Notes under the pieces: generated by a model
Seen by the model: the letters and a program-made list of their open reading frames with translations, nothing else
Told to the model about the DNA's origin: nothing
The model's database searches: none
Part shown: in pieces, positions 14,401 through 56,191 of the stretch
Numbering within the stretch: position 1 is the stretch's first letter
Layout: every line of letters starts with the position of its first letter
Source: Membranipora membranacea
Taxonomy: Eukaryota > Bryozoa > Gymnolaemata > Cheilostomatida > Membraniporidae
Direction of reading: 5' to 3'
DNA length: 64,000 nt
Assembly: GCA_914767715.1 (NCBI GenBank)
Contig: OU612073.1
Coordinates: 21,204,001-21,268,000 of the forward strand
Translations under genes and position numbers: made by a program

Positions 14401-17400
14401 ATCATGTAGCATGAGCCTTTGAAAATTGATCGGATCCTTCCACTCTTGCTTTAGCGCAGATCATAGTTAAGGAAAGTTTTCAGCCTAAGGTTAATGATAT
14501 CGTTATCCGACTAGTAATTCAGAAGTAAACAAAGGGTTCAGTAAGACATTCTTTGGTCCGGAGACTTTCGTCTCACATATTGTGATTAGGAATATAACAT
14601 CAACCACATATATAAAACATGATACACAATCTTCCTGGAAATCAGGTAACTGCTAGATTGAGAACTCAAATGGCTGCAAATAAGATTACAGAACGTTCTT
14701 CCGGCAACAAATTACAAGAAAAACTGCATTTTCATAGTTTGATTCACTTATGCCGAAACAATGTTATGTGGTCTCGGTATTTGTCTAGTCCTAATTATAC
14801 GGCTAGTAGATGGAGAGAAACTTTTTTGACCAAATAAAATGAGCAAATAGCACTGTATAATGAATTAAAAGAGTAATCCTCAGATTTCAGTTTTCTTGAC
14901 ATCATATTATCAGTAGCCAATCTGCTATCTTTTAGTACATAATCCACTTATAGTAAGAGTTATTTGCCCACAACTTTTAAGAGGATAACTCCTACAAAAC
15001 TTTGATAATTAATTTGTCAAATCAGGGAGTTTGGTCAAACCGTAGAGTTATCCTCTATGGGTCAAACCACTTTAATGGTTTTTCAGTGTTTGAGACAGTA
15101 AAGTACTTCATAATAAGAATACAATCTTACAGCTTATAAAGATGTCAACTCCCACTTATCATTTTTCAATGCTCCCCGAGATCTTTTAAACTCCTAAACA
15201 TTTAGTGCAGAACAATGTATAACAAGATATATTTTGTCAGTGTAGTGCTTTATTCAATGAAGAGGGAATTCATTGCTTTATTCATGTTCAGATTAGCTAA
15301 AATCAATTTGATAACCTTGGGGTAACAGCATCAAGACTTGTAGATTTTGGATATTCAGGTCAATTATAGGAGTATCAATCCACTGATTATTCTAAAAACA
15401 TTCAACAATTGTAACAGTTTTACAATTTCCTCTTCAATATTTGGTTACTTATCCTGAATGACAGCTGTTTAAGCACTCAACTACATCAAGGTGTAGGCAG
15501 GGTATTAGGAGTAGTCTATGAAGAAAAAACAGTAATAACATCCTATTTTAAAGAATCAAATGTGTATACATTCTGTTTCTGAAAGAACTACAAATAATTG
15601 ATATGAACAACTTCAATAGTCATGCAATTAATCTGTTGTGACATCCCAAAATGTTAGCTCATGTTGATTATAAAAGCAAAAATATTTTCTTGAAAATGAG
15701 TACCCTGGTTGATGCTGTTTAGTTGAATTAGAATTGCAGGGTGTTTTGTGGATGATTCTATGCGATAAGTCCAAGCCCAGTGTGAACACAATGACGCCAA
15801 GTATGTGCATGTCTCTTGGTTTACCAAGCATCAACATTGATAGAACAACATCTTGCCGGCGATTTTAAATGTGTCATCAAAGTGTACCTATGTTTAAATC
15901 AATTGCGGTTTCGTGACTAAACGCATTTCGACAGACAGATTTTCGAGAGATGAACTAATACACTCCACGACACCGCTTTGTTTTTATGAAATACGTCAGT
16001 TCGTCATAAAGAATACTCTAGTACAAGATATTTTGGAAGCTTGGTTCACTTCTTGAGCGGAGAAGAAGTTGGCTTTACTATAACTGCTCAATTTGTGAGA
16101 AATGCTGAAGTTTGATCAAGTCCTAGATGCAACATCACACTCTGGCTCTACATTCAAACAAGATAATGCTGACAGGGTCGATGTCAAAGCCACATAACAC
16201 AACTTCGAGTAGTCCGAGAGGTTCATTTCATCTGCTCTTTGGTGGGAGAGACATATCCAATGATTCCAACCTGTACTTTGTGTATGCTACAAGCTAATTA
16301 TTCAAAAATCAGACACAGCAAATTTCTAAATCATCCCCATAGCTAAAGCTTATGCTCTGGTTTTTTGTTTGCAATTTCATTCAAGGATAAGGAATATTGC
16401 ATATTGTTGGTGATAATTCTCTCCAAGATCACAGCCATCATAACTGTCCACTTTCAAGGTAAAATTCTTGCCTGTCACACCAGATGTGCCAGCATACGCG
16501 CACCACTGTATGTTGTATCATTCACTACAGTGAAAATTAACAAGCAAAGGTGTGGGTGTGTGTCGATAGACTTTTTTTGTTTCTCTCCTCAAAAACTAGT
16601 CACGAGTAGACATATGAAAGTTAGAGGTGGTTTTAAATATAGACGCCGCAGCTATTTCAACACCTCCAGAGAAAGGAAATATGGGATGAGGCTTCTGGTA
16701 GACGTGAAAAGATAAATTAGAATACAAACTCCCTGATTGCAGAGTACGAATGTTTTACGGGGAAGTGAGTTGTCCTCTCTTTTTACATGTCCGACAACTC
16801 TTCATTAAGCCACTAACTCATCGGAGTTGTTGAGTGGAATCACTGTTGGAAGTGATTCATAAAAAGCCAAGTACAAGCAGTTTCTCTTCTCTTTAATGAA
16901 CTGTGTAATCCTCAAACATGTTTGCAGTCTGTGTAGGATCATACGATACTATCAGTATATCCAACTTGATAAGGTCAAAGTTCATTTGCTTTCGTCAGAA
17001 ACATGATCCTGGAGTTAGCCTACATATGAACCAAGCTGTATGGGTTATTTGTGAAGTCCTTTGGTAACAGTTGGTGGAATCTATTCTGAGAATATTTTAG
17101 CATGTCTGTTTACCAATAGTCAACACAATGCGATCATCCTCATGCAAACAAATATCTGCAAGCAACCAAGCCAGGACAAGATTTATTGATAATTGGGCTA
17201 CTTCTCTGAGGCAAATTGCAAGCTGAATATTGCGATGCTTCTCACTGTCCCACCTTTTACAACCATTGTGTAATAAAAAAACTGAATACTATGAAAGGAG
17301 TGAATGCATCACACATGCAAGTTGGTAGTTCAATTATCTGTCTGTCGTAAAAACTGGGAACTGAGTTGTACCAGACAGTGGTATTGATTATTCATTGAAT

Positions 17401-19700
17401 AGGCCCGAGTTTCATTGGTGACGAGTTTGCATTATCAGGAGACTGACCTAAGCTTCTCAACATTTTGCCACAACAACAAATCGGAAATCAAAGTGGCCTG
17501 GATTTTCAAGCTCTGAGCATCTACAGTCGAACCTTGACTGCAACTTCCACAGATTAATACTAGTATAAACTTCTACTATTGCCACTGGTAAAGAAGTCAT
17601 GGAGCAGGTCTGATAGTAAGAAAACTATATACAGTGCTTGTGAAATCAGAGGCTGCTAAACATTGCCAAACTGTGCCAGATGAAAGCTCTTCAGAAACAT
17701 CACTATCACTAAAACGAATAGTTTTGCAAGTTTGGAGGTACTGCATAGCATCAACTATCACAAGCTAGAGTGGGAGTTTGTATTATAATCTAATGAGGTC
17801 GAGTAATGTAACAGCATAAATTTTGTTTGGTGTGTGCCAATTGCGATGTTTGCCCCAAGTGAATACTATTCTAGGGTATGTCGAACAATGAATGCGCCAA
17901 CTGAAAAACAATAAAACCAATTTTTTGACAAATTGAGCGTTGTATACCAGGAATCTCGATTACTTATATGCCAATGATGACATTAGGAAGAGGAGGAGGT
18001 GGTTGATGGTTGCTGTATCTGTCAGTCACGCCTCACCACTGATGGTGCAGATATGATGCGGATATATTGTGTTAGATGCATAGACTTATTATTGAGTCTA
18101 TGGTTAGATGTGAGAATTCAATATAAGTTGGAAGAGCAAAGCCAGATTTACTTCAGGAGGTTGTCTGAAAGACCAGCAAGCCATACATGATCGCCTGAAA
18201 CTTCTTTTTACCCTATCCCAGCTTTTTGATGAGAATTAATAACAGTTGGATTTGCAGGTTGTATCAGGCAACAGTGTGATTATTAACCTAAAGCGCCTTA
18301 ATAAATTGAGAGGCTGCTGCAGAAAACAGTGATCAAAGCATTTGGTCATTTATAGATAGTGCCTTTTCTGACAGCTGTATGAATATGCAAATTTTGTGAA
18401 ATTTTATTTGTTGTTCATTATCTTTCTTTCGTTTTAAGTTTAAAATCCATTGTGTAAATGATGTAGGTTCATCGACCTTTTTCTGTACATTGGTACCATT
18501 AGTTCTTGATCTTTTGACTCTTGATTTTGATACACCTTTAGCCTTCGTTGGCAGTGTATTAGCAATTAATATATGTTGAGCGTGTGGGCAAAGGGTGTGG
18601 CCAATAGTGGGTTCCCTATGTCTGGCTGTGACAGATTTGGTCTTGAATTTTTTGATACAGTGTGAACTACTCAATACACCCTGACATCGATTGGTAAATT
18701 TTCTTTTCCATATCAGAATCAAAAACCCTTATCAATAAGCAAAGCTTTGAAGAATGTTTGATGGATAATCACCATCTGACCAATGAGATTGGGTCAGAGA
18801 GAGACCAACCAAGAGAAACTTCCTGAAAGCTTTGTCTTGTTAAAGCAGCTACCAATGTGATAGAAATCGTGAACGTCACTTGAGATAGGCGGTTTTTTGT
18901 TAAAAGATACAGTTCAGTTACAATAGGTACAATATTCAATTTAGATCAAGTCTCAATTCTGGGACTTTATTTGGATTCTCAGAAGCTGACGATTTCTGTC
19001 ACATGGATACTGTACAAGTGCAACAGCAAAATGTAGGCAGCAATACATTGATAAAAATAATTTAGAAATGTATGTAAAGTAACCTCATGTTCCACGTAAA
19101 GTCTCCAGTATTTGCTACAGTTTGGGAACTGTGTAATCAGCTTCTCGTAGAACGGCCTGGCATCAATACATTTTTTTCTCTACAACAAAGTAAGAGGTGT
19201 CATCACTACCAGCAAGCTAGGTATGGATGAAACTAATTTTCATAGCAGGTGATTTTTAACACAATAGTCAAAGGAAGCAAATAACAGTTGGTAGTAACAT
19301 TAAATAGCCTATTTAAAATACAGTACTTACTTGGTTCTCTCGAATGAAAATGCCCCATGCTTCGGTATCGAATGGTTCCTCAACTAGTCTGTCCTGGGCT
19401 TTTTTCAGCCTGTCTGGAGCTCTCTTGAAGTCCTATGTTGCAAAATAAAATATTTTAGAACAAAACTGAGAGAAAGGAAAATTCACTGTCAGCTCTCTTG
19501 AAAGCCAAAATCAATCATCCAAGAACTGAGAAGAAAAAACAATTTGTACCACAAGGAAAATACCAAGCGGCTTTATGTTAGCAACAAATCGTTGTAGGCC
19601 CATGCTGTACATTCAAGTGGATGGAAAATGAGAGTTTTATGCAAACCTCAGGGCTCAGTGGCAAATTATCATTCTTCTTTGTATCGTCTGAAGATGCCAT
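5468..19700 (-). CDS. CSTF3: Cleavage stimulation factor subunit 3 (CstF-77, suppressor of forked)
   Basis: Seventeen exons on the minus strand form one open frame of 2190 bp (729 aa; the vertebrate protein is about 717 aa): 19700-19647, 19432-19331, 19179-19084, 12585-12439, 12249-12164, 11517-11391, 10945-10787, 10461-10325, 9854-9683, 9448-9374, 9108-8965, 7931-7829, 7620-7551, 7283-7082, 6814-6658, 6203-6054, 5676-5468. CstF-77 is the scaffold of the CstF complex that recognises the GU-rich downstream element during mRNA 3'-end formation in the nucleus. Residues 1-560 are HAT repeats; examples are [36 protein letters not shown] and [14 protein letters not shown]. The C-terminal part has the proline-rich segment with [13 protein letters not shown] (monkeytail/CstF-50-CstF-64 region) and ends [11 protein letters not shown], matching the family terminus. 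The start ATG leads an acidic 18-residue first exon. Intron 3 is 6.5 kb; intron 11 holds two MITEs. Confidence 0.95.
7961..8160. mobile_element. TTAA-bounded MITE, copy 1 (with duplicated left end)
   Basis: The unit starts TTAAAGGGCAACCAAGG and ends with the inverse, CCTTGGTTGCCCTTTAA. Its left arm is tandemly duplicated: a segment of about 49 bp, from the TTAA through CTCATTGATGGCCATTGA, occurs twice in succession. Internal sequence such as TATAATTCGGATGATTA is shared in inverted orientation with the neighbouring copy at 8186-8550. TTAA at both ends suggests mobilisation by a TTAA-specific transposase (piggyBac or Kolobok type), which is an inference. It lies in CSTF3 intron 11. Confidence 0.8.
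8186..8550. mobile_element. TTAA-bounded MITE, copy 2
   Basis: The unit starts TTAAAGGGCAACCAAGG and ends CCTGGTTGCCCATTAA. Its right 110 bp, which contains the ATAATCATCCGAATTATA and TGCAGAAGGTGCA motifs, is the reverse complement of the left part of copy 1. The two copies therefore lie head to head, 25 bp apart. There is no coding potential. The element is in CSTF3 intron 11. Confidence 0.8.
12738..13031 (+). pseudogene. Possible C-type-lectin-like fragment, antisense inside CSTF3 intron 3
   Basis: An open frame of 97 codons ends [19 protein letters not shown]. The [12 protein letters not shown] pattern resembles the last conserved cysteine pair and C-terminal strand of C-type lectin domains (C...P.P.ICE). 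The expected WND/WxDxxC region and upstream cysteines are not recognisable, and no clear splice partners were found. It could be a decayed retroposed fragment or a chance ORF. Confidence 0.25.
15034..15067. mobile_element. Mini-hairpin with 7-8 bp direct flanks (GTCAAAC)
   Basis: GTCAAAC at 15034-15040 and 15061-15067 flanks a 20-bp hairpin at 15041-15060 with arms CGTAGAG and CTCTATGG. The direct repeat extends to 8 bp (GGTCAAAC) if the last G of the hairpin is counted. It does not have the CA start of the other hairpins, so membership in the same family is less certain. Confidence 0.55.
15248..15282. mobile_element. Mini-hairpin with perfect 7-bp TSD (CTTTATT)
   Basis: CTTTATT occurs at 15248-15254 and again at 15276-15282. 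Between them is a 21-bp hairpin with perfect 7-bp arms CAATGAA and TTCATTG around a 7-nt centre. The ends are CA...TG, as in the other members. It lies in CSTF3 intron 3. Confidence 0.75.
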
Positions 19701-22404
19701 CTCTTCTAATTCCAGCTCTCTACTGATGTTGTTGCAATGCCGGAACTACAGATTATGGATTGTTCAAATCAACAAGACATTCAAATTGACGAATTACACG
19801 GGTATGATTGAATTTACGTAACTGTTTTATTGGAATAAACTCATACCAGGATATCATCTTCCGAGAATGATCAGAGGACGCCTTGATGAAGACCAGATAA
19901 TTGAAAGGGTGAGAGAGAGAGGAGAGTGAGAGCTGTATTGAGTGGTATATCATTGTAAACATTCAGATGCATGAACAAGCCAAGGTTTTCATTCCTCTCA
20001 AATCTGATAAAATCAGATGTAGTAGAAGATTTAATATTCTCACAAATACTCAGATGCTTGAAAACTCGGTATAAACCCTAGCATTATTATTAATTATTAT
20101 GCAACCCAATAAGGGCCGGTGTGTCCTTGCTATTATACTAATAAGAAACACGCACCCTCACATAGTGAGTCAACTCATGTGCAACATCATCAGTGGAGAA
20201 GAGTAGGCCTATGTAGGGAGGCCTATCTAATACTATGCATGTGTTATGTCAGGGGACAGATTTATGCTCATTTTATTTACAGATAGTTGATTGATACACA
20301 TTGTCTACCCATCTATTCCTTACTCAGTGTAGGGGTACTGTAAGTTTTTTGTTTGTCAGATGGCCAAGTAGTTTGGAGGAATAATTTAGCTCAGTGACAA
20401 CAGCGACTTGAGTGATGAGGCAGCAGTGTGTGAGAAGGAAGACAGATTTGATTTAATTGCCGTGTCCAAAGATCAAATTTGAAAACGGAATGAACAAACA
20501 GCGTGAGGGTCAGATGAGAGAGATCACATATCAGTTGGAGTCACTAGATAGATAGTGAGTGCTATGTGATGACTTAAATAAAATACTTCCATTCATTGAT
20601 TGACACAAATTAATTTCAAAAGTGGGTAGGATTGATTTCAAGACAGGATTGGCTAGCTTGATGACCTATTGCAAGATGATGGTTTGGTTTGTTGTAGTTC
20701 TGTGTTTTGAATGATCTTGATTGGTTACTGATTCTTTCTGTTTCTCATTGAAGGTTCCAGTGAGTGACCTGCAAATGGATGCAGCAATGCTATTATTATT
20801 TGTATAAAAAGTTACTTTTTGAGTCAAAACAATGCATGTGGAGATAATTTTAAATGGATAATAAATGTCAAGGCTGAAATTAATCTCCAAATCTGCATTC
20901 TAACTGAGGACTGGTGATATCATAGCGATCAAGTAGAGGGGTCACTTACACTATGATTTTAGCAAATTGAACCAATCACAAATGGGTAAACTGCGCTGTC
21001 CAATTAAATCCATATCAACACAATAACTATGACCAGATTAGCGCGTAAACCAAAGTAGTGCTCACGTGCAATGCAACGTGAACCTTGGGTACTCACGCAT
21101 ACTGAAAGCTATTATAGCCTGTGTTCTATCAGGGAGAATTCTCCCTGGTTCTATGTACACTAAGGATTGTCATAATATTATGTTATTTTTTAGTCAACGC
21201 TTTGGATAGCCTGTGGAATGAAATCTTGAATACTTCCATAAAGAATATGAATATATCATTTCATTGAAACACAAGAAGCTCACACTCACAAGGATATAGC
21301 AGTGCTCTTAGCCGATAAGTAAGGATATTCTATAGCTAGTTGATATTGTATGTTATGTACAGAAACTCCTGGCTGTTTCTTGTTTTTTTAATAATCCAGA
21401 CACTAGACAGTTCTCATGGATTGGACTGGAGTGGTAGGCCCTCCTACAACGATTCATCATTCTTATAGTTGATTTGATGATCATGATGATGGTGGATTTG
21501 ATCTCACTCTTTTTATATAGTTCCATTATTAGCTATGCAGTCATCATACACTTAAATTGTCACTTTTGACTGATTAGTGATTACTTTCAGGGATAAGGGT
21601 GAGCATACCAGACCAACAATGGCAAGATTGAATGAATATGCACTGTACTGTTTTCACCAAGTACCACTCCTTTGACCTTTCCTAACAGTGGTATGGTCCA
21701 ATGGGGGTCCCGTGTATGTATGTACAGACAGGGCGCTTATACTCTAAGGACCATATTTAACGCAGACAAAGGACGGAAGATCAGAGTTCCATGCAGCTGT
21801 CATTACTAGGCATTACATTTCGCGCAGGTCATCGAACTCCGGCTGCGGTGGCCTTCATATGGGGCCTCACTACACTAAATGACTACATCTAAATAATTTT
21901 AGAGCCGTACTCTCATATTTTGTCTTGGGCGTCTCGTGATTTTCTCATCATAGAACCTCGCCAGCGCAACAACAATCACACAATTGAATTCCCAGTGGGA
22001 GCTAGTATCCCGTTGTGTAATATGTTGAGCTGCTTGACTGGCTATGGATAAAGCCCCGCAGCGCCCTGATAATGTGACAGCTAAGTTTATCCATCCATAC
22101 TCTGTCTTTGTCAGGCTTTGTTGGATTTGTGGAGGAAGGACCCCCTCCTTCCATCCAACAGAGCTTGTCAAGTCAGACTACACCACTCTCTAGGGGCCTT
22201 ATACTCATTCTAACCATTGTTATTTGTCCTCTTTTTATATCGCAATCGCCTACACTGGATTTATAGAAATAATAAGTGTTCACAAATTCTAGCTGGATAT
22301 TACAAACAAGTTACAAGTCTAGAATCATCAGGAAATTACGATTTCCTAGTATAATTCGGGATACCGAATTTCACCGTTGTCAATCTGACAGAAGCATCTG
22401 ACAA
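19701..22404. promoter_or_regulatory. Divergent intergenic region between CSTF3 and cryptochrome
   Basis: This 2.7-kb stretch separates two start codons facing away from each other and must contain both 5' UTRs and promoters. No conserved ORF is visible. A GA-rich tract lies around 19903-19932, about 200 bp upstream of the CSTF3 start codon. One mini-hairpin is inserted at 21123-21154. No E-box cluster or other clock element stands out clearly. Confidence 0.5.
21123..21154. mobile_element. Mini-hairpin with perfect 7-bp TSD (GTTCTAT)
   Basis: GTTCTAT at 21123-21129 and 21148-21154 flanks an 18-bp perfect palindrome, CAGGGAGAATTCTCCCTG. This is the smallest member; the CAGGGAG end matches the hairpin at 40341. 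It is located upstream of the cryptochrome gene. Confidence 0.8.
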
Positions 22405-22405
22405 G

Positions 22406-22438
22406 ATGAGTGGTACAAACCGGGATGTCACAACTTAA
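22406..22438 (+). CDS. Upstream ORF overlapping the cryptochrome start codon
   Basis: A ten-codon ORF beginning ATGAGTGGTACAAAC starts 19 bases before the cryptochrome ATG in another frame and stops 11 bases after the main ATG has been read. An overlapping uORF of this kind would lower initiation at the main start unless bypassed by leaky scanning. Whether the transcript includes it is not known. Confidence 0.5.
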   Translation: MSGTNRDVTT

Positions 22439-25400: not shown

Positions 25401-28400
25401 GACATAGGGCCTAATTATTCAAAGACAATAGTGAATATTTATATAGGCATATATTTTATTTTATTCATCAACAAATCTTTGGCCTCGGGTTAAAGACAAC
25501 AACATCGTTAGTTAAAGACGATCATGAATACTAATAGACCTGTCGATATTATATATATTATCAAATCTGTGCATTTCAGTTAAATAAACAGTTTAAATAT
25601 TAATATGAAATTAAATATGAATGTTAAAGAACCTAACGATAATATTTAATAAGATAGGAGAAAAGCAATTTCATCAGGCGACAAAGATTTGAAATTCCAC
25701 GTGTTGTCCTGCAGAAGAATTGCAAACCAAACTAGTATTTACTAGTTTTGCATTTCTTATAGCATTTCCTATAGCTGGCTGTATTCCTTATGCAATTACA
25801 CACTATTATATGGGAAGGATCTTGTTACTTTTGGAAATTCATAAAATACTGGATATCTGAACACAATATACCTGCTGAGCTATCATATATTGTTATTTTT
25901 CAATGGTAGAAGCAATTTTTCATGCACGTTATTAAGTACTGTGTCACGTTATCATAGGTCCATATTTGACCTTGTTAGATAATTATTGCTTTGTATGGGA
26001 GGCAAAGCAATCGATGAAATTGATTGGCTGAATGCAGCTTATAACAAATTGGGCGAAGTATTATAATAGTCTATAAACAGTGAACTCCCTGAAGAGGGAG
26101 GTCATTGCTATAAACGTGCAGCTAAAAGCTGCACTAGCTGCACGGGCAATTTGCTCGTAACTGCTATTTCGTCAACAACTTTTTTAGAAAGAATTGGGTC
26201 AAATATATTGCATAGTAATTGTGCCTGTGGTAGTAATATCAAGTATATATCAAAATAATCAGTAGGGAGAATCGTCACTTGCTCCACATCCTGTATGTAG
26301 CCACTGAAATTGTGTTTTCGGACGTTGTGATAGACTCTGTTGAACCCATCCGCTATTTATTGTCCCACCACTTCCATAACCTATACTTCCTTTTCCTCAA
26401 AAGCGTATATTCATCATGTAAATTAGAAGGCCGTGGAACAGATTGTGAATGAAGATATACCTTTCAAGGCATTTAGTTTGAATTTCCAACTCAATTAGTC
26501 ATAATAACTTCCTTCCCAGAATGCAACTTTAACCTTGGGCTCAGAGGAGGATAATGAATTTGGCATAAATGTAATCACTGATTTTATTTGGTACTGATTT
26601 TATTTGGTACTGATTGTTGTGTGGTATGATAGAATCAGTGAGTCCTGAGTGAAAACATCACAAGCCGCCTGTAACATCCTAATATAAACATATATATCAA
26701 TATACAATGAAACAACAATGTTGGCATCGATAATAGGTCTCACAGCTGATAAAAACACATATTGCTATGCTATTTAATTCTACATACAGTGGTTTGACTC
26801 CTAAAAGCACTGATTCAAGGCAATTAGTCAGTAAACCAATGTAAAATGGCAGCACTGACACTCAATGCCTAGACATTTGTTTATCTACTGTAACATAACA
26901 ATGTGCTCCTTCCAATTAAACATGTCAGCAGCTAAGTTATAGATTAACACATGCCATTTCCAAGAAAACATCAGTTTGCAAGCTGACCATGCCTTTGCTC
27001 GACAGGCAATAAGCGATGAAGTTTTGGATTACTGCATTAACATCAGCTCTGATAATTTAATGTTTTAGTTTATTCACTGGGCGTGTTGTGACATACTTGA
27101 ACTGCCAGACTGCCTGTAATCTATAATAACTTGACCTACAAATCAGAATTTGTTGTTTTGGAAATCAATGCTTTGCAGTTGCAGCTGCAAATATCCAGTT
27201 TAGGAATTCTATATTTAGATTATGTAATCTCCTGTAAATCTCTGTGCATGTGCGTGTGAGCAGCTAGCCAAATAACAAGGCTCAAGGATTGATCTGCCCA
27301 AAAGATTTCAGTTACTCAGTTTAACTCGTTACATTGCAGTGTAAGCGCAGGTCTGATAGAATTTAGTTGTCTGAAAACAGAATTTGCTTTCAGGAAGTCC
27401 CTGTTGGGAATACAAGGTGCCCTAGCCAGCTAGCGATCTATAAAAAAAGTGCATCGTCAACAATGCCAGAATCCCTAGAGACCTCTTATTGATCAACCTG
27501 AATCTGTCTCTGATATGTCCTGCCAATGATCTGTTCAGTCAAGTTCTTGTGTCGACTAGTACGTGTATGGTCACGTGAGGTCTCCTGATGTATAAGGTCA
27601 TCATAACTCTGATAGCCATAGGCATAGAACATGTGGAAGGGTATCGGGATCCCACAACTCCTTTCTTATGACGAGGGACTGGACTAGGCAGTAGCAGACA
27701 AAAATAAGATGGCGACAATATATTCACACTCACAATTCATTATTTTACTACCATTTCAGCATTGGCATGTCAATGTACTGTCTATAGAAGAAGACCCCAC
27801 TCCTTACGGATCCAAACGTGATGAGGCTATAGGCTCCCTGGCTCATGAATACGGAGTTTATGTTGTAAAACGTTCTTCTCACACCCTGCATCCAATATCA
27901 AAGTGAGTTATAACAGCATAGTCTATTTTCTGTGAGAGGCCTTATTTGGTATCTTCACTGAGTGCAGCTCTTCACATGTTTACAGTCGCGTCTCTCGATC
28001 AAACTGGAATTGTACCATTTTTTTATCAAATTAAATTGTTGCTCTGACCGAATAAAGAGTAAACAAAATCCTATTCAAAACAGGCTACCGGGGGGGGGGG
28101 GGGGGTTGAGGGGGGAGCAACTATAGCAATGTATCAGTGTCTGAGATATTGCCAATTGCCTTTTTCTCTTTGTTTCCTCATCAGTATAACAGTTTTTTCT
28201 AACCCTTGGAGGAGAGACTCATCAATTTGGCACTGTACATTCAAATGTGAAATTCTGCCCTTTTTTCTTACAGGTTGGTTGATCTGTGTGGGGCGAAGAC
28301 GCCAGCCACTCTGAAGCAGTTTGCAGTGATATTTCAAGCTGCTGGCCTTCCTGACATCACAACAGAGACAGTACCCTTCAGCCGACTAAAACTCCCTACT

Positions 28401-31400
28401 AGTCACTCCGACTATGACCCCAAATACTGTGTACCTTCGTTTGAAGAGCTCGGTAAGCGTCCACTAATCAATATTTCTTGACCATCATCCACAGTCAGAA
28501 TTTGGCTGGTACTCTTTTCCAGGATGCCAAGCTGGTGTGGCTGTGGCCATGACCCCCTTCCTGGACCTTTACCTTGACCACAGTGAATCTATACAAGCCC
28601 CACTAGCTTGCATCGCTTTATTGGGCCTCAAAATGGGCCATTGAGGGGTGAGTTTTACATGGTCGATGTTGTTTGCTCTTGCTTATATTTGGGTAAGGCC
28701 CCTTGTGCTATATTCATTGTGTCTCTGAATGGTTGGTGTAGGCTAGGTAGGGACTAGATCTATATATTTATCAGGGCATGCTTGTGGTGAATGTTGTGCT
28801 GTGTTGACTTTTTCCTTGGTCCAACAAATTTTTTTCTCAAACAAGATAGCTATCAATCGCAGTTATTGCTCACCACATTTCGTAGCCGATTATTTACCTG
28901 TAAATTGATCATTGCAAGTGAGTGAATGCATGGGTGATGATTGCCCTGCAAAATATCATAATCTATCCTTTGATTTGATAATAATAACAAATGTATGGGT
29001 GATAAGGATTTCATATCAGGAGAATAGAGAAAATTGGCAACCAATATAGAGAGTCATGGGATGCCTCAAGAGATTGCTACATTTGCCAGCGCACCAGCGC
29101 ACGAGGATCGCATAGTGCGAGCACACATCACGCCTGCGTTGATTTCACATCAGACGACCACAAAATATTTATACTAATTGGCTCAAATGGCTGATGTAGC
29201 TCTTACGTCATCGTTAGAAACAGAAATCATATCTGGCTGTGGAATATGTGGACATTATATCACGTTTAGGAAGCGATTGTGAATTGAGACGGCAGGAACA
29301 TGGCCACATTAAACTGCAGGACAATACTTACCTTTCCTAGTTACATGTGTATGATGTTATTGAGCAAGTCAGTGGAAAAGATTCTGAAGAAACCTTAATT
29401 CTTGAAAGGCTATCCTTCTTTTCAGATAGTGATTTTCCCACTAGGCCGCACCCCTCAGGTCATGAATCCTCGGGCATAACCCCAATACACAAGCATGGAC
29501 TAAACGTGCAAATCAGTCACTGCCAAACACACAAGTTTTCGCATAACTCAAGTTCAATAATGATCACATCACAGAGTAAAGATAAACAGAGGGGACACTT
29601 CAATGATCGTTATAGTGCCTGCGGTTTTTGAGCTACTGGGGGAAAATCATCATCTGGCCACCTGCCAATTTTCAATAAATATATAAGCTAATAAGGGATT
29701 TTCTCATACACACATGCCTACCTTTGTTGGGCCATCAGTCTTTCTGTATTCATCCCAAAGACTGATTTCCAACTTTTTTTAAATGTCCAACCTTCAAGCT
29801 ATACACATTATTGTTGTCATTTTTTGCTAGGATACATAGGCTATGATTTATGTGGGTTTTTAAAATGAGTTATATCATATAGATTAACAAGCGGCTTGGG
29901 TCGGTACACGGACATTTCCTAATTTTGATGACCATCCATCAATTGTCACATGTAAACCTATATGGAAAAACTCATTTTAAAAACCCATATAACTCATAGC
30001 CTATGTATCCTAGCAAAAAATCACAACAATATGGTGTATAGCTTGAAGGTGTGACATTTCAAAAAAGTTGGAAATCAGTCTTTGAGATAAATACAGAATG
30101 AATTATGACCTATCAAAGGTAGGTGTGTCTGCCTAAAACCTCACATTGTAACTTATATAATTATTGAAATTTGCAGGTGGCCAGATTGATGATTTTCCCC
30201 CAGTGGATCAAAACCACAGGCACTATAACGATCATTGAAGTGTCCCCTCTGTTTATCCTTACTCTGTGATCATATCCTAGAAACCACAGAACGGTATGAT
30301 TTATGTGAGTTATAGTAACTAGGGCATTGACCCTGATTTATGAGAGTATTAGATTCACATACGTGAGTGTCTGAAACAGGGAGAGGATTAATTACTCTCA
30401 TGTGCACCCATCAGGGAAGATTGCCATTACAGCAAGAATGGTTATTGCCTGAAACCAAGGAGTTAGTCTCTAACTCCTCGCTGAAACACAGGCACCAAGT
30501 TGCCATCACAAATTAACCAGCGGATACCTCTCTTGAAGCCCATATAAGACACAAGGAATCATGTTTACTGGTCCGTGTGTAATAGGTCGGTAATGGGTTC
30601 TTTATCAGATTGTGTCTTTCTGTCCAGCATCCGTATAATTGAACGCAGAAACTTGCTCTATTATTTATATGGTGACAACGCCGTGCTCATTTCACTATAT
30701 TTGTCGAAACATACGTGTCAAGGCTATAAACCAAGCACTACCGTGTCTATTATTGTCAAGGACAATTACTAATGGCTATCATATCTACCTACCTACCTAC
30801 CTGTAGCGTTTCACCAGGAGCATGGGAGATGTGTTATATTTATATTTTGTGTTTAAAGAAGACTTGACAGATCATCATTGAACCATTTACAAAAAAAATC
30901 ACACTGCTAATTGTTATTGGTGGAGCTCAGTTGATCGTAATAGTGTAGACTGTTCACACTCGTCTGTATTCTGGTCGTATAGCCAATCAGGTGCGATTAT
31001 TTCTCACCTGATAGCTCATCCACTTTATGCACATGAAGTATTGATGCCATGTGAGTCGGGAGCACGCTGCCTCGAAAGCCCGGAGGGACCATATTATTAC
31101 GGCTAAGCAGTCACACATTCCACTGGCACAATTGGTCAGCCTATGTGACACCTCTGACACCTTTCTATATGTTGTAAAAATAGCGATGGGCAGAGACTCG
31201 TGTGAGCTCTGCACATGCAAACGCCAAGTAATGTGGTTTGGGCCTTCATGTAAAAAAGGCAACATAATATGGGCTGCAGCATGTTGTTATCTGAGAAAAT
31301 GCCCAATCGCATTACACAAGAATGACTGTTGTTTTGTATGTGCTTGTTTTAAATGTCTGATCGGTGATTTCTGAGCTGTGTCGTGCGTATTTTGCAATGT

Positions 31401-38543: not shown

Positions 38544-41500
38544 TATGCTCTGGGATTTGGTTGTAGTTTTGCGAGTCTGATTGTTCTAATGATAGTATCT
38601 TATTATTTTGGTCTTTATATACTAAGTTTTGTCTATGTGACCATAATGATTAATCTGGTGCCTGGTGTGGCAACATAATGACTATCATATAAACAGCTAC
38701 CATCATTTTGTTGTTATCAATTTGTTGCCCAAATATTGATTCATAACAGCAAAAGGAAGTTTTGTTCTTAAAAACTTAGTATACAGTCCCCTTTTAGATA
38801 AGACCACACAGGTCTTTCCACGAGCCATATATGTTTACATCACTGCAATGTAAGATTTTATAGATCAAAACATCTTCAGCATTATGATGACATGTAGAGT
38901 TTGCGATGCTTGCTCATAGATTTAGACTTCAAGCAACATGATTGAATTGTTCCAGACATTGGACTATTTGATGTGTAATAATGAGCCAATAATTTGTTAT
39001 GATGGTGTAGCATGAGAAATAGGATCTAAATTCACTCCAACAAGGAAAATCTAATGCTAAAAAAGATTCATCATGAGCCTACAAAATATTTATTATTCCC
39101 CAGTTATCTTCTAGGCTTGCAGAAGGCAGTATGATAAAAACTCTGACTGATACTCTGCGAGAAACCCAGTGAGCCCTTAGACTTATACTGATAGTTCAGA
39201 AGAAAATTTGGGTGGATGCTCCTCCTGCCACCTTCCCATCCGTTTGGAATTGAGCACAGAACCCTGTGCACCTAACCCATTGAGATATGTTCTCACCTTA
39301 TATATACAGACATGGACATGCAAAGTCTTATCTTTTATTAAAATGCCTTCATGGAATTTTTACTAGAGAGGTGTGTAATCGAACTAAACAGCTCTGCGAT
39401 GAGGGGCACCTGAAAAAATTGTGTTTTCAATTCCAGATTGAACCCAGGTTTGTCATCACATTATCATGCTAATAACAAATGATGTGTAGCCATTTACAAT
39501 GCCCACAACACACCAACCTTACAACTTAGTTCACAGTTGACAAACTATATTATTACTCATTCTCTTTCTTATCTCAAAATGGAACTCAATAGAGAATTAA
39601 GCAGGTCTTTTCATGGCTTGAAAATTTTCATGAATACTACTGACAATAAGTTGGAACCTTTCTATGGATGGAAGGGTTTATTGCATTATTGCACGATTTG
39701 ACATCCATCACTTTGCAGTCTATTAATGTTTTGGAGATGATCACAAGCATTACAAATCCTCCTGTGGTCATCAAATTTTTTGTTCTCTTGTTATTAAAAT
39801 TTGAAAATTATACAATATTTTTGCATTTCTATGCCTTTTGAACAATAAGCGTTTGTTCAGCTATCAGGTATCAACAGGTAGTGATGAATGTAGTTTTAGT
39901 TTAGGAGTTGTAGATTACACCAGCCTCCCTCCCTCTGATTTAAAGGGGAATGGTTTACATTCTTTCATACCCTAAGAACTGCTTATATGTATATGGACGA
40001 TGTGGTTATATCATATTACGCTAGGCTGGATATAATATGGATAAAAAAAGGGCATGAATTCCATTCTGAATCCAAATTCTATTGGCACAAGTAAAGCTAT
40101 CTGAACTGAGCAGTGCAGGTACTTAGTGTCAGTGTCAGTTGTATTTTGTTTTTGATCTTACAGCCTGTTTTTCAAAGATAAATGATCTAGCCTCAGTTGC
40201 ACGGCCATTCAATCACACAGCCTGCTGATTTCTATCTAACATTTTAGGACATCTTCTTCTACAATGTCCTTTTATATTGTGGCTTTATCTCATCAATGTT
40301 GAAGATAATTTAACAATTGGCGGTTAAGCTAATGTATAAACAGGGAGGGTGGGATATACCCTCCCACCCACCCTGGTGTAAAGCAGCAATAAATGAAGCT
40401 GCAGAAGTTATCCCTTCTTTGTACATGACAAGGCAACTCCTAATAGAATAGGACAATCGAAAATGCAAAATGATGAGTATAATTCAGTATGTAAGGTGTA
40501 AACATCAAAACTGAACTATGAGAAAATTAATATCTGCCGTGGTGATTCTGTGAATGAAGACAAAACCTCTGTAGTATCTGGTATACATCGTCAAACAATA
40601 GAGAAAATGGCAGCGATCTGTTAGTAAACTAAAATTCTGAATGAGTAAATCAATGCTTTTATATGGTGGCAATATTTCGAAGTTGATTCACATGGCCCCC
40701 AAAAACAAGGCACACAGAGGCAGGTTATAAAAATGGTCACACAATGAACTCAAAATCACCCAGAGATGTGCGGACAATGATGAATCAACATGTTTGCAGT
40801 TGTAAATCAAATCACTCAAATAAAGTTGTTTTGCTGTTTTGTGGTAAATGTAAATATAAGGTGATTAATCATGTCAGAAAACAAATATCTGTTTGCACGG
40901 GAGGTTAATGGAACAAGATTGTACTCTCCAGAGAAAAGGTGATTGACACCCTTTAGTTTTCAAATAACAGATATCAACTTTTGATTATTGAACCCCATAA
41001 TAAATGACCTTGACGAGGGCCGTTGAAGAGAATTTTGGAGTACATTCGTAAATTTAGGGAAACATAGTTACAAGTGTAATTCCTGTATTGCACATACATG
41101 TTTTTTTTTAATAATTCTATTTTTATATTTTTCTATCATTTTTCATTATACTCATAATACTCACAATTGTATAATATTACTTATAACGATAAAATGTGGT
41201 GATTAGTGCTTGCCACTGTTTTGTATTGTATTATTAAGGTGATGGGTGTAGTTATGATCTTACAATTAGGATTTTAAAAGTTGGTGGTGAAGGTCTTATC
41301 CCTCATTAACTCTTGCCTCACCCGGCTCAAATTTGGGGTCCAGACCAGAAAGAAAACGTGTATTTTGTCTGCAACTAAAATTGTAAACCAATTACCATCA
41401 AGGTAGCAAATAGGATTCTTTCTTGCATAAAACAAGGGTCGGAATAGGATGCCAAAATCCCCTTGCCCAAATTTGACATTTGATTAGTCAAGCTGTGATT

Positions 41501-44800: not shown

Positions 44801-47179
44801 TGCTGGTTCACCCTCCCATATAATAAACCTGTGTGCACCAAAAAACCAATCTACTGATGACGAATATGTGAGTACTTGTCTACGGGATTGATTTTGAGAC
44901 ATAAATAATTGATTTGCCAGTGCATTGAAATTTGATAATCTCTGAAATCAGGATGTTGCAGCATTAAGATTTGAAATGTATGCTTGGAGATCAGATCAAG
45001 TCCTGCGTGCTATGAATTGCATGATCTCATTAGGGAGACCATAATGTGACATTATTGGATGGTCCCCTTTAGTTGATTCATTTCCTTACAATCAACATGC
45101 CACATTATATCCTGCGTAAGCATAAAAGCTCCATTTAATTGCTAGGGAAGGGTAACCCCATAGACTTAAGTCTATGAGTAATTATTAGATCTATGGGTAA
45201 TGCCAATTGTTGACAGTTACCTCCTATGTTTGCACATAATTAACTAACATCAAAAATGCAGTCTATTTGTTGAAAGTCCTTCCTTGATAAGGATGTAGTG
45301 ATATAAACCAGGACAGGGACATAGATTGAGAATTTGTTTTTCACCAGATTTAACTAATATTATTTTAGATGTTGCAGACATTATTTGAGAGGTCTCTTAA
45401 TATTGCTCATGATATGGGGATGACATCGATAGCATTCCCAATGATTGGATGTGGAAATCTTGGATTCTCACCTACACAAGTTATGGCAGCTGTACTGGAT
45501 GCCTGCTCACTATTCCATATGAGAAGCAGCTCTCTGGTTCGAGTTGATGTGATCGTTTATGAACGTGACCTAGTAACTCAGCAAGTGAGTGTGTACTTTT
45601 ACAAGTATTTTAGACTGACTTGCAGACATATAAAACTGACAACCGGGTAGTTACTAGATTGCTAACACTGTTGGTTGTCAGTTGGCAGTACTGGTAGTTT
45701 GCTGTCTTAAAGATGCATTTTACGCTAGAAATGCCTTTCATTGGCTCTAGGTTCACAAATACTGTTGTAGGGAATTATTGCAGAAATTGTTGTAGAAAGC
45801 ATTATGGTTGGTTTTATGTTCTGTCTCATCTTAACAATACCTGGCCAGAGCTCAGTCTACAGGGAGGTAGCAATTTAACTGGCTGTCAATTAAATTCAGT
45901 GTAACACATTATTTACAGTATGTCGAGTGGCCACAGTTTATCAAATGGCTAAACCGATTCAGTCCACAGGGTAACGGGCACCTGGAGAGGATACCATTGG
46001 TGGTTAAAGCCTTGGATCCTGTACTCATGTTTCTCTGGACTATGGGCAAAGATAGAGGCGTGCAGGTAGTGAAGGTAAGAGCAGTGTTGATCCTGTCCGT
46101 GGCAAAAGATGGAATGTTTTACAAAAGAACAACTTCTACATGGCAATATTCATTTCTACAAGCAATAGCAAAATAGTCATTACAGAGACATGTATATACA
46201 TATATGGCTATTAGCTATTAGATTTATATAGGCCCATATATATAATTATGTGTAGTCTGAGCCCCCAGACTTTTGCCCCTCGCCCGACGGCCCCCTTCGA
46301 GAAAAAATTGTTATTAAATTATGTGTTTTTGCGTCTTTTTATGATAGCATTGTCCGATTCCCCGCGGGTCGCATTTAGCTGAGTTCAGCCAATCACTACA
46401 TCGAGTAAAAAGGCAGCAGGCAGATATGGCTGACTCCTCACTACTTCAGTATGCCTGGCATGGAACCAAGGGAAAATATGCGTTTGACATCGTGAAAGAT
46501 GGCTTTGACATCAGTCTCGCCGGCAAATCCAATGGTAAGTACAGTACAATATACATGCACATGTCTATGAGATCACAATTACATTATCATACAAGACTTG
46601 TCAATTGGGAAATTTTTTTTTATCAACTTTATTGGCATAATTTTCATTCAATGAGAATGTTTCACAAAATCAGCCTTCCAAGAAAAAGAAAAAAAGGGAA
46701 AAAAAAACCAAAAACTTTCAATCAAGATGACGAAAAAGATAATCAGAAAAATTGAGTTTGAATGATTTATAATAGTTTTAGATCAATGATAATTTGCTTG
46801 TCACTTTGCAGCAAAATCTTTTGGTAATGGAATTTACTTTGCTCTGAGGGCCGACTATTCCCATAACTATGCTCCTGTTGGCGGCTTTGTACCAAAAGGG
46901 AAACAGCTGACCGTCGCAGAAAAGAAGGATAGAGCAAAAGTCCACACAATGATACTGTGTAAGATTATTACTGGGAGGCCGTGTCAGGGAAAGAAAGGTA
47001 TGATAAGCCCTCCGCACGGTTACAATAGTGCCTACGGCCGCCAAGAAGATCAGTTTGTCATCTTTGATGCCAGCCAGATATTACCGGAGGCTATAATTGA
47101 ATATACAACCTCTAAACATAAAGTACACTGTCAGTACTATACAACCTCTAAACCTAAGGTACATGGTAAGTCATCTTAG
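41837..47179 (+). CDS. Macro-domain plus PARP (mono-ADP-ribosyltransferase) protein, PARP14/15-like
   Basis: Seven exons (41837-42893, 43847-43920, 44601-44867, 45369-45584, 45919-46074, 46348-46534, 46812-47179) join in frame to 774 aa. Residues 1-350 are a Ser/Thr/Lys/Gln-rich, probably disordered segment without a recognisable domain. Residues about 353-540 resemble a macro domain: LNLVTGGDILRYPCDAVAST, GPQFAKIAG, and ASIAFPMIGCGNLGF-like sequence (IAFPMIGCGNLGFSP is present). The canonical NAAN is replaced by AST, so ADP-ribose hydrolysis is unlikely and binding uncertain. Residues about 590-760 form a PARP catalytic domain with His628 (WHGT), Tyr661 (GNGIYFA) and Ile in the PEAII position. 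H-Y-I in place of H-Y-E marks a mono-ART, which modifies target proteins with single ADP-ribose units; relatives act in stress and antiviral responses. The ATG at 41837 opens the exon, but an upstream coding exon cannot be excluded. Confidence 0.85.
43061..43723. mobile_element. Foldback element carrying two opposed tRNA-like promoter heads
   Basis: Inverted arms of about 115 bp begin AGACTTAGTTTGAGGCTGC at 43061 and end GCAGCCTCAAACTAAGTCT at 43723, with only scattered mismatches. Between them are two pol III-like modules. On the minus strand, a B-box complement GAATCGAACC is at 43341-43350 and the A-box region is at about 43391-43415. On the plus strand, an A box TAGCTCAGCTTTAGCGGCG starts at 43425 and a B box GGTTCGAGACC is at 43469-43479. 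The element is in intron 1 of the macro-PARP gene. Confidence 0.75.
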
Positions 47180-47648: not shown

Positions 47649-47698
47649 GTTAAACCAAGGAGTTGTAGACCACAACTCCTACAACTCCTTGGTTAAAC
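47649..47698. mobile_element. Mini-hairpin with perfect 7-bp TSD (GTTAAAC)
   Basis: GTTAAAC at 47649-47655 and 47692-47698 flanks a 36-bp hairpin (47656-47691) with perfect 13-bp arms CAAGGAGTTGTAG and CTACAACTCCTTG around a 10-nt loop. The first nine bases, CAAGGAGTT, are shared with the hairpins at 30456 and 50652. Confidence 0.88.
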
Positions 47699-50644: not shown

Positions 50645-50702
50645 CATATACCAAGGAGTTAAAGACATATATACCAAAGAGTCTTTAACTCCTTGTATAT
50701 AC
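50645..50702. mobile_element. Mini-hairpin with 7-bp TSD (CATATAC/TATATAC)
   Basis: A 44-bp hairpin (50652-50695) has perfect 15-bp arms CAAGGAGTTAAAGAC and GTCTTTAACTCCTTG around a 14-nt loop. The flanks CATATAC and TATATAC match at 6 of 7 bases. It lies in the last intron of the patatin remnant. Confidence 0.8.
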
Positions 50703-51356: not shown

Positions 51357-51407
51357 CAGTGCCCAATGAACTCCCTCTTCGAGGAAGAGGGAGTTCATTG
51401 CAGTGCC
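51357..51407. mobile_element. Mini-hairpin with perfect 7-bp TSD (CAGTGCC) inside a patatin exon
   Basis: CAGTGCC at 51357-51363 and 51401-51407 flanks a 37-bp hairpin (51364-51400) with perfect 17-bp arms CAATGAACTCCCTCTTC and GAAGAGGGAGTTCATTG around GAG. On the minus strand the duplicated GGCACTG overlaps the exon end, because the donor GTAAGT is the complement of 51352-51357. Hairpin plus one duplicate therefore add 44 bp to the exon. Confidence 0.9.
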
Positions 51408-53109: not shown

Positions 53110-53712
53110 CTAGAAGCAGCAGATGTGTTATAAGATATATGAAATTGTGATTGTTCCGTGTAATACAGCAATATAGGACTATATGAATTATCTCGTTATT
53201 CATCAGGACTTTTCTTTTTTGGAGAGATATTAACGTGAATTGCCTAAACTTTAGAAGACTGCAGTAATGATATACATATGTTGTAACTTCATGCTAGTGG
53301 CTGGTGAGTTATCATACACACTTACTGTAATTCTTATGGCTTTACCAATATTGATAAATGGTAGTAATTGGTGGTATATTTTTAGGGGAAATTAGTATTG
53401 AGAAATGTTGTTGCGATTTTAGAATCAAAGAAATTTTTATCTGTTGCTAATGGTTTTCTCAATTTACAATCTGGAAATCAGAAACAGCTGGTAATGGCTT
53501 CAGCAGGGTGTTTTGGACAAATACTCAAATTTCCCAAACTCCCACTTTCAACAGCGCCTCTTTTTTTGGTCACAATAAAATGAGTTGCCTTCTTACATTC
53601 ATAAGTGTGACATTACAACACAGTTGCAGATATGCAGATTATTTTTTTCTTATTCTCTGAAGGTAAAGGGACAACCGCTTACAACAGTAACGCCAAACTC
53701 TTAAATCAGCAG
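53110..53712. other. Spacer between patatin remnant and CUB/sushi gene
   Basis: Neither the patatin N-terminal exons (minus strand) nor the first exons of the CUB/sushi gene (plus strand) can be recognised here. A 61-codon plus-strand ORF near 53400 looks incidental. Confidence 0.45.
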
Positions 53713-56191
53713 ATGGTAGTGAGGTGATAACCCTCAAAGACATGGGTGAAGTGAGTCGAGGTGTAATCTATGTGGATCGTTATGGTAATCAAACTGCTCC
53801 CAGAAACTGTACAGTGAAAATCAGGGGGAATCAAACAGGTGTCATTTTTTTCAAGCAGAGATGGAGAAATGCAACAAGTGGACCGTGTCTTCAAGGTAGA
53901 ACTATTAGCAGCAAAACGCACTATGGGTCATGCCCAGAACAGAGGGAATATTTCCACCTAGAGATTGAAATCATATTGGAAACAGGAGATGTGGCTCAGC
54001 CAGGCTTTATCATAGATTACAGGGGTGAGATTTTTCAATTTCCAATTCATCGATAGCGTAGATTATATTTTTCAATCTAATTTAGAATGATTATGCTGAT
54101 TTTACATTGTTTTTCGTTATCACATTATATGGTATAGTTTCCACACCTAGTAGTTGTTGTCATGACTTCTTACACCATTTTATTCAACTTGGCCATTCCG
54201 CTACACTTTGCATGACTCATGCAAGTGTTGAAGGTCGCTTCTCGGCCTATTGGCTAAGATCAAAGTGTCGCTGCCAATGGCCGATTAGTGCCAGTTCAGT
54301 TTTGGCAGCTCGCTGCACACCCACGATTAGGAGGTCCACATGGCCTCACCTCTAGGATGCATTCTAGCTTTCTAGGATGTATCACATTCTCAGTATGAGA
54401 ATTTAGGGCACCTTGCGTCCCTCTTTAGGGGCAGCCCAATCTTCTGTTTCTTCGCAAACAGCAACTTGGCCATTCGGCCTATTGGCTAAGATCAAAGTGT
54501 CACTGCCAATGGCCGATTAGTGCCAGTTCCGTTTTGGCAGCTTGCTGCACACTTATGATTAGGAGGTACTCTATGGCCTCACCTCTAGGATGCATTCTTG
54601 TTTTCTAGAATGTATCACATTCTCCGTATGAGGATTAGGGCACCTTGCGTCCCTCTTTAGGGGCAGCCCAATCTTCTGTTTCTTAGCAAACAGCAACTTG
54701 GCTATCCAACCGGATAATGATAACTGTTTACTACTTACATTAGCGTTTCCTTCAACTATTGTTATCTTTCTCTTCCAGTTTACCCAGCGTTCACCATGAG
54801 CGAAAATTACCCATACATCGGTGCTCAAAAGCAGCCTGAGGGATATATTGCTGACCAATTGTTTTCAAAGGATTCTTTAGATAGACCGTATCGCATGAGA
54901 GCATTTATTGAAAAGTTACCTGTGACTGCGATGATAACCCTTCAGGTAGAGGTTGTCAAGTTGAACACATCAGAAAATCCTTTATTTCATATTTATTATC
55001 ATGAAACTAGTCGCCCTGGATTTTATATCCTGAAAGACATTTACGCTGCCAATACCACAGTCACGAACAAGAATCTGAAGTTTATAGGCCATTATCCAAT
55101 AAAGATAGACTATAAGCCAAATGTGGATGCTAAATATGGGGAATCTCTTCGCATCAAATACAAGGGTGAGTGAGCTTCTATCTGAATTATGAATCGTGCA
55201 CCCATACCACAAGACAAAGAAACGGGAATTTTGGGAGCTTGAATTGAGGAGTAAAAGACTTTACTCCTTGCTTGAATAGCTACTGGTGAGGTTTTGCTGT
55301 GGCAACTCAACATCAAACAACGGGGCATTTGAATGGTATGCCACAGTATCTCACTTACTTTTAAACCTTCAACCTAGGAAGATACAACCATTTTTTTATC
55401 AGATAAAAAATAATTGCTGTACTTGCCTTCGATTCCAGTCAACTGGTGTCCTGATACGGAAATACATCTTGAACGTATACAGCAAATCCAGGTAAATACA
55501 TCAGAATACACTGCAACGTGTAAGCAGGGATATGAACTTGATTCCAAAGACACCCATTACACTTGTCACGGTGGAGAGGAATGGCTTCATGAACTGAGAT
55601 GCAGTAAAATAGCGAATGTCACAACTGGGTCAGCGACAGATGACATCCCATCAGATCATGGTATGTGCTATGGTATAACTAGAAGTGTTTGCTTGTGTTA
55701 CGAGCTCTTGACGGATCAGGGGATGCTCTTTTCTATGCGTTATGACTTCATTGTGTTGCTGGGAGTAGGAGGTAGCTCAGTTGGTTAGAGTGCCTGCCCC
55801 CTAACGCGCAAGCGTTGGAGGTCTCGGGTTCGATTCCCGGTGTAGGCTACTGTATGCTACCGGGCTCAGTAGATGATATAGGTGTTCAGTCTTCAGACAG
55901 AGACCAACTTGCAATATTAACCTACTTTAACCCACATGTAAATTGGTAAGTTTAAGTTTATGTGTCACATTTGACAAAATATTGTATCAGTCATTGTTAT
56001 CATTAGTGAACCAATGAATATACAAGATGCACTTAATATTGGTGACCTGTAAAACGCAAAATCGCAGCGCAGACACCAAACTACTTATTCTCAACTCCAT
56101 CATCATTCCAACCCATCCCAATCATCTCCTCTCGTTCTCAGGTGATCAGCAACAAACTACAGTGCGGCCATCTGTTCAGACACGGGTGTAA
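53713..56191 (+). CDS. CUB-CUB-sushi extracellular protein (5' end not resolved)
   Basis: Four exons join in frame: 53713-54024, 54779-55165, 55439-55660 and 56142-56191. The first and second exons each encode a CUB-like beta-sandwich of about 105-125 aa; the first has aromatic/Gly landmarks such as GEVSRGVIYV and ends PGFIIDYRG, the second starts YPAFTMSENYPYIG and ends LRIKYKG. The third is a sushi/CCP module with cysteines in CPDTEI, TCKQGYEL, TCHGGEEW and RCSK. Exons are phase 1-1, typical for shuffled extracellular modules. Several N-x-S/T sites agree with secretion. The reading ends at TAA 56189-56191 with the C-terminus VQTRV. Skipping 36 bases (GTGTAAG donor at about 56186, CTCAG acceptor ending about 56221) would keep the frame and add a hydrophobic stretch, VPVFAGVLAALSMLIRLL, ending at 56326-56328. 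Start and signal peptide must be in an upstream exon. Confidence 0.7.
54235..54470 (+). mobile_element. SINE-like unit with U2 snRNA-derived head, copy 1
   Basis: The unit begins TCGCTTCTCGGCCTATTGG followed by CTAAGATCAAAGTGT. This matches the 5' end of U2 snRNA (conserved ATCGCTTCTCGGCCTTTTGG then CTAAGATCAAGTGT) with one substitution and one inserted A over about 33 bases. The remaining 200 bp are unrelated to U2 and recur in copy 2, ending GCAAACAGCAACTTGGC. It lies in the intron between the two CUB exons. Confidence 0.75.
54474..54702 (+). mobile_element. SINE-like unit with U2-derived head, copy 2 (head shortened)
   Basis: This tandem copy is about 93% identical by eye to copy 1 from TCGGCCTATTGGCTAAGATC to GCAAACAGCAACTTGGC. 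It lacks the first six bases of the U2 head. The direct head-to-tail arrangement with no spacer points to unequal exchange or nested insertion. Confidence 0.75.
55238..55277. mobile_element. Mini-hairpin with perfect 7-bp TSD (CTTGAAT)
   Basis: CTTGAAT at 55238-55244 and 55271-55277 flanks a 26-bp hairpin (55245-55270). The right arm ends TTTACTCCTTG, and the left arm begins TGAGGAGTAAA rather than CAAGGAGTAAA. The C-to-T and A-to-G differences at the first two bases are the only deviations from perfect pairing near the end. It lies in the intron before the sushi exon. Confidence 0.78.
55765..55860 (+). mobile_element. tRNA-derived SINE head
   Basis: An A-box region TAGCTCAGTTGGTTAGAGTG (55773-55792) and a consensus B box GGTTCGATTCC (55827-55837) are spaced as in a tRNA gene. 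The anticodon arm is replaced by a hairpin, CCTAACGC-GCAA-GCGTTGG. The acceptor stem does not pair, so it is not a functional tRNA. It lies in the last intron of the CUB/sushi gene. Confidence 0.7.

Follow-up and report, generated by a model that had tools for sequence, protein, structure and literature searches.

What produced the very short hairpins that recur across the window, by which we mean the whole stretch of 64,000 nt analysed here (Membranipora membranacea, GCA_914767715.1, OU612073.1, 21,204,001-21,268,000)? The initial annotation had left two readings side by side: tiny mobile palindromes, or excision footprints left by a cut inside the inverted repeat of a transposon. The anatomy of the inserts, the lengths of the flanking duplications, the target motif, the P transposase genes of the genome and the ends of an 8-bp P element collectively support the second reading, and we conclude that the hairpins are very probably the repaired excision holes of P-superfamily DNA transposons. 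The first is disfavoured by unequal arm lengths and a one-sided scar, while recurrent inserts still fit it. The Membranipora membranacea genome comprises 339.4 Mb in 21 scaffolds, with eleven chromosomes (PMC10290214). Our genome-wide pattern searches covered 339,339,785 bases in 18 contigs, and 280,651 bases in 43 records (loci labelled L), including four loci picked by the hairpin pattern and 20 transposase loci, were sampled for closer study.

Under the excision explanation, insertion of a P-superfamily element would duplicate 7 bp of the target (8 bp in some families). On departure, the transposase would cut in a staggered fashion some 17 nt in from each element end, with at most 17 nt of either inverted end staying behind in the chromosome. 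End joining would then trim these remnants, anneal short matches or add templated filler, and the product, ordered as duplication, left end, filler where present, right end and duplication, would read as a hairpin. We infer the cutting step itself, and likewise joining of the polymerase-theta type; the 7-bp families would be moved by a transposase of the same P superfamily. The Drosophila P transposase is described as cutting one strand 17 nt inside the element (PMC7776569), and in the fly P-excision repair junctions described in PMC2895639 the two copies of the duplication enclose remnants of both element ends, at most 17 nt each, joined at microhomology or through templated filler. The Drosophila P{wa} junctions reported there have the same layout as the scars here, short and one-sided products included, whereas they carry an 8-bp duplication and were induced in laboratory flies; the bryozoan scars are natural, fall into several families and mostly have 7 bp.

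All eleven hairpins of the initial annotation are present in the window, and its description of 7-bp direct flanks holds for ten of them (eight perfect, two matching at 6/7); the exception, 15041, has a perfect 8-bp duplication. Four candidates were absent from that list (5753, 18079, 34829 and 45159). The division of inserts into left and right ends in Table 1 is our reading and is not always unique. The left ends of 40341 and 32425 are alike, as are their right ends. We read the doubled sequence in 47656 as filler copied from the right end; in 50652 the ATATACCAA of the insert occurs also at the left flank junction, and we read it as templated filler.

Table 1. Putative excision scars and one foldback element in the window, by position.
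Feature	Position	Direct duplication	Insert (nt)	Insert sequence and reading
One-sided scar (5753)	5746..5770	ATGAGAC	11	CAGGGAGGGTG; first 11 nt of the 40341 left arm
8-bp scar (15041)	15033..15067	GGTCAAAC, perfect	19	CGTAGAGTTATCCTCTATG
Scar (15255)	15248..15282	CTTTATT	21	left 4 (7 with microhomology GAA) + right 17 (CAATGAATTCCCTCTTC)
8-bp scar (18079)	18071..18110	GTTAGATG	24	left 7 (CATAGAC) + right 17 (CATAGACTCAATAATAA)
Scar (21130)	21123..21154	GTTCTAT	18	CAGGGAGAATTCTCCCTG
Scar (26078)	26071..26114	CTATAAA	30	left 13 + right 17 (CAATGACCTCCCTCTTC)
Unexcised foldback element	29563..30275 (element 29570-30268)	ATCACAT/ATCATAT, 7 bp		element of 699 bp, near-identical ends CACAGAGTAAAGATAAA
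Scar (30456)	30449..30487	CTGAAAC	25	left 8 + right 17 (CGAGGAGTTAGAGACTA)
Scar (32425)	32418..32465	GTAGCAT	34	17 + 17
Short candidate scar (34829), weaker, may be chance	34822..34847	GCTATAT		CAAAGATCATTG
Scar (40341)	40334..40382	GTATAAA/GTGTAAA	35	17 + A + 17
Probable scar (45159), weaker	45151..45203	GGTAACCC/GGTAATGC, decayed 8 bp (6/8)	37	CATAGAC ends
Scar (47656)	47649..47698	GTTAAAC	36	ACAACTCCT twice in tandem
Scar (50652)	50645..50702	CATATAC/TATATAC	44	contains ATATACCAA
Scar (51364)	51357..51407	CAGTGCC	37	17 + GAG + 17 (CAATGAACTCCCTCTTC at both ends)
Scar (55245)	55238..55277	CTTGAAT	26	left 17 + right 9

The arms of related scars were compared between loci. In the CAATGAACTCCCTCTTC family, the splits run from 17+GAG+17 (51364) through 13+17 (26078) and 4+17 (15255) to 17+15 (L048:43) and 17+4 (L048:2075). 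Six arms of this family at five loci have a common 17-mer (0-1 mismatch) followed by five different continuations. The insert at L050:1501 reads 17+TTA+17. Across 16 pairs from hand-picked families, with arms chosen by eye, cross-locus identity was 1.00 at positions 13-15, 0.62 at 16, 0.56 at 17 and 0.19 at 18. In a less selective pool (80 pairs, 23 loci) the similarity ends at 15-18, with the best change-point at 15 and 16-18 about 5-6 log units lower. A sharp drop at 17 is thus seen for some families but not for the pooled arms. For insert length, 23 of the 31 catalogued inserts measure up to 34 nt, and the eight that exceed 34 nt would need filler under the excision reading.

The strongest rival, which we consider improbable, is that the hairpins are themselves tiny mobile palindromes, MITEs of extremely short length that a P-like transposase would mobilise in trans. 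The duplications and the ends would fit it equally, and the recurrence of near-unchanged inserts, readable as discrete mobile units, counts against excision: 15255 and L048:2075 are one 21-mer in opposite orientation with one base different, and of the first 50 hairpins among the matches listed genome-wide, 31 have a length of 18, 24 or 27 nt (one repetition being a duplicated site). Microhomology could explain several of these recurrent inserts. The rival is also favoured by the want of a convincing intact 7-bp-family element in the 280,651 sampled bases. Against it stand the variable lengths within families and the inequality of left and right ends seen at 15255, 26078 and 51364 (4+17, 13+17 and 17+3+17), the one-sided 11-nt scar at 5753 and the filler of 50652 that is identical to its flank. 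The inserts of the CAATGAACTCCC family measure 21, 21, 30, 32 and 37 nt, the two 21-mers being nearly identical, and show neither the uniform length nor the internal sequence common to all copies that mark a MITE. Furthermore, Drosophila P elements are said to require 138 and 216 bp of end sequence, although only about 100 bp has been suggested for Anopheles, both according to PMC1562414.

The excision explanation calls for a transposase, and the P-type enzyme that had been predicted is present. The P-transposase HTH family PF12017 has 78 matches in the genome and none in any of 14 control genomes. All four Pfam families (THAP, P-type HTH, RNase H and GTP-binding insertion) are recognised in open frames at two loci (L073 and L071), and three of them in one at L065; one open frame is similar to the solved Drosophila P transposase (PDB 6p5a, E 7.7e-14). 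In the window, a Pfam scan of 40 of the 60 frames of at least 85 codons found no P transposase. A reverse transcriptase fragment (Pfam RVT_1) lies at 60613-61101.

A full-length element had likewise been predicted, and this was borne out for the 8-bp family and, within the 280,651 sampled bases, not convincingly for the 7-bp families. A 4933-bp P element (G000:C1:26749000-26753932) lies between perfect 8-bp duplicates, TGCTGATC, and its inverted ends, beginning CATAGACCTACTAATAATAAACC, are identical over 35 bp; a 483-bp element (L051:6261-6743, duplication GTTTGAAC) has ends related to these. When seven scar arms were aligned to the L051 end, the right arms of 18079 and L086:441 matched it at 16/17 and 17/17, both diverging at 18, and the other five fitted less well. 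Seven intact ends of the CATAGAC family were compared, and six have CCTAGACAGG shortly past position 17 while L083 has TCTAGACAGG; the 18079 and L086:441 arms are without the CCTAGACAGG-type continuation. The autonomous CATAGAC copies carry an extra TAA, so that intact ends aligned in register also differ past 17 and agree again after a shift. Judged by this resemblance of sequence, the ends of 18079 belong to the end family of a P element found in the same genome, and the arm matches thereby tie the 8-bp scars to that element. An 18-nt scar-like insert with an 8-bp duplication (ATCCCGCT) lies at position 1144 of L064, L067 and L069, inside a P-transposase locus; being common to the three copies, it was probably carried along by transposition.

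For the CAAGGAG, CAATGA and CAGGGAG families, which have 7-bp duplications, no convincing intact ends were found in the 280,651 sampled bases. A search for long elements covered 23 of the 43 records, the 20 transposase loci being left out, and returned three candidates with 7-bp and two with 8-bp duplications, with none in one shuffle; only the L051 element among them belongs to a scar family. The 20 transposase loci, in stretches of 3.2 kb, gave no useful long element; the sequence covered stops short of the full ends of transposase group I (L064 and relatives) and of the L071/L078 group. Near matches to 7-bp-family ends outside hairpins occur at L055:9371 (2 mismatches) and at L052:6454 and window position 2295 (3 each). 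The first, on the minus strand with 2 mismatches in 17 to the CAGGGAGGGTGGGATAT end, may be an intact 7-bp-family end or chance. The foldback element of Table 1 may be a surviving P-type element; it does not share the scar ends, and its resemblance to the scar families is one of form only.

The target sites were also informative. The window duplications suggest the motif S-T-N-N-N-A-S; a first test of it was circular, using the duplications that had suggested it, and the later tests were a priori and out of sample. In 20 duplications outside its derivation, the motif gave 59 matches against 27.5 expected (0/400,000 samples), and the published GTANTAC of Galileo fits the same 20 duplications (p 7.5e-6). 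It is highly improbable that the scars derive from a different superfamily of the kind whose ends partly stay behind, be it hAT-, Mutator- or Dada-like. The hAT elements make 8-bp duplications and have CA ends, and the window does contain an 8-bp element of hAT look, but most window scars have 7 bp, and hAT transposons are cut at the element end and are not known to leave a terminal repeat behind. Dada, for its part, inserts into small-RNA genes. Moreover, the 8-bp scars match the ends of a family that includes an element with a P transposase, and the 7-bp length together with the target motif fits Galileo, which favours the P superfamily over a hAT, Mutator or Dada source. The hAT-like element (57891-58197) is 307 bp long, with a perfect 8-bp duplication ATCACAAA and ends CAGTGTTCTGAGTG. 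A 417-bp stretch at 49905-50321, with a perfect 8-bp duplication ACATAATA and inverted ends matching at 12/17, may be chance.

Galileo, a member of the P superfamily, makes 7-bp duplications in Drosophila willistoni, with 8 bp in three copies, and like the scars it has the palindromic target consensus GTANTAC (PMC4168063, PMC2775673). Like the 699-bp element at 29570 it has long inverted repeats, a likeness by form that leaves terminal sequences aside; the passages on Galileo in these two papers contain no scar catalogue. The Anopheles P elements and P-MITEs in PMC1562414 resemble the present case in their P transposase families, 27-31-bp inverted repeats and non-autonomous relatives; they have 8-bp duplications, and the word footprint is absent from the main text of that paper. 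Natural, genome-wide excisions with deletions and filler, as here, are described between two rice species (PMC4423477), where 94 putative events are counted, the superfamilies tabulated are others (DTT, DTH, DTM, DTC and DTA) and the passages on these excisions report no palindromic terminal remnants.

The frequency of the flanked hairpins was measured by scans with shuffled controls. A general scan for a direct duplication of 4-12 bp and inverted arms gave 16 matches in the window, 10 of them at 7 bp; 20 dinucleotide shuffles averaged 0.65 matches overall and 0.05 at 7 bp. The ten comprise eight hairpins of the initial annotation, an AT run at 1236 and an unrelated hairpin at 22115. The rows at 1236, 22115, 63579, 49359, 2783 and 50249 were set aside, as was a 48-nt row at 24551 in the scan that gave 5753 and 34829. 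A blind scan for CA..TG hairpins, which omits 55245 (where the left end is TG), found 9 at 7 bp, 3 at 8 bp (one of them a tandem repeat at 63577), 1 at 5 bp and 0 at 6, 9 and 10 bp. Sixty shuffles of the window gave means of 0.08 at 7 bp and 0.03 at 8 bp. In 13 arbitrary 10-kb stretches (130 kb) the same scan found 4 at 7 bp and 2 at 8 bp, and over the window and these stretches the shuffle means for 7 and 8 bp were 0.03-0.15 (60 shuffles). The density of 7-bp sites is uneven, 9 per 64 kb in the window against 4 per 130 kb in the arbitrary stretches, and the finding was selected because its hairpins had caught the eye. Over the 280,651 sampled bases, 22 sites have a 7-bp duplication, 9 have 8 bp, 2 have 5 bp and none has 6, 9 or 10 bp, while one shuffle gave 1 at 7 bp and no other length; the nine 8-bp sites are not all scars, for one site in three copies (L064, L067 and L069) is counted among them, together with a tandem repeat and one or more longer palindromic elements (L056:5985). 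A looser scan, which allowed one mismatch to CARDGA in the ends and one in the flanks, was noisier, with 16 at 7 bp in the window against a mean of 3.9 and a maximum of 9 in 30 shuffles; with exact flanks it gave 8 at 7 bp, 0 at 6 bp and 1 at 8 bp. The peak of duplication length at 7, with 8 second, against near-zero shuffles counts in favour of excision scars.

Several other small features lie in the same sequence. A second, different class of very small palindromic element, with ends CATTGC or CAGTGC, occurs at 8131-8215 (85 bp) and L056:5985-6040 (56 bp); its duplication is CATTAATG, read as CATTAATG/CATCAATG in the window copy. The tandem repeat at 63559-63644 has a 28-bp unit in 3.1 copies. 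An Rfam scan of the window gave no match at gathering score; two tandem 232-bp units at 54234-54705 start like U2 snRNA (31.3 and 20.6 bits, gathering 46) and are probably pseudogenes.

Genome-wide, the pattern CAAGGAGTTN{0,30}AACTCCTTG has 1103 forward matches and its reversed form 1. At the first twelve listed places, all on chromosome 1, 7-bp flanks were found in 12 of 12, perfect at L047, L048, L050 and all eight of L089-L096 (11 in total) and 6/7 at L049; L091 and L095 are reverse complements, flanks included, and hence copies of one site, so the twelve places are eleven sites. Among the first 50 of the matches listed, 45 hairpins are no longer than 34 nt. It is a practically negligible prospect that the hairpins arose by chance or are commonplace structures, such as terminators or regulatory palindromes: the same arms do form hairpins elsewhere, in 43 viral-contig stretches carrying CAAGGAGTT..AACTCCTTG (some being one sequence in several contigs), but direct flanks of 5-10 bp accompany 0 of those 43, against 12 of the 12 examined in this genome (6/7 or better), and shuffles yield almost none. 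Of further pattern matches in other contigs (two Bartonella, one viral), none showed a 7-bp direct flank within the sequence retrieved. By a very rough extrapolation from the 4 sites in 130 kb, the whole genome would hold of the order of ten thousand such sites.

The fate of the 7-bp families may be read further. It is conceivable, if unlikely, that these families were purged, in that excision without reinsertion removed nearly all of thousands of P-type insertions and the lineage survives chiefly as scars of 11-44 nt. The cause might then be a transposase that cuts and integrates poorly, or loss favoured by the host, a proposal we hold just as tentatively. If the purge did take place, the P superfamily would have conserved its 17-nt staggered cut all the way from flies to bryozoans. 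No paper among those listed in a literature search treats P-element scars across a whole genome or in a bryozoan, which is weak evidence of novelty, most subscription journals being outside its reach.

P-element excision junctions are known from laboratory flies, and here they would be preserved, scattered over the genome, in a distant animal phylum. A single assembly, with 1103 matches to one exact hairpin type, offers a natural data set on transposase cut sites and on how the bryozoan germ line joins breaks by microhomology, filler and trimming. The findings suggest a scar annotation for tiny palindromes that have direct flanks, and such scars offer a route to infer transposon ends that are no longer extant intact. 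In conclusion, this bryozoan genome most likely preserves a natural history of transposon excisions and of the DNA repair that followed them.
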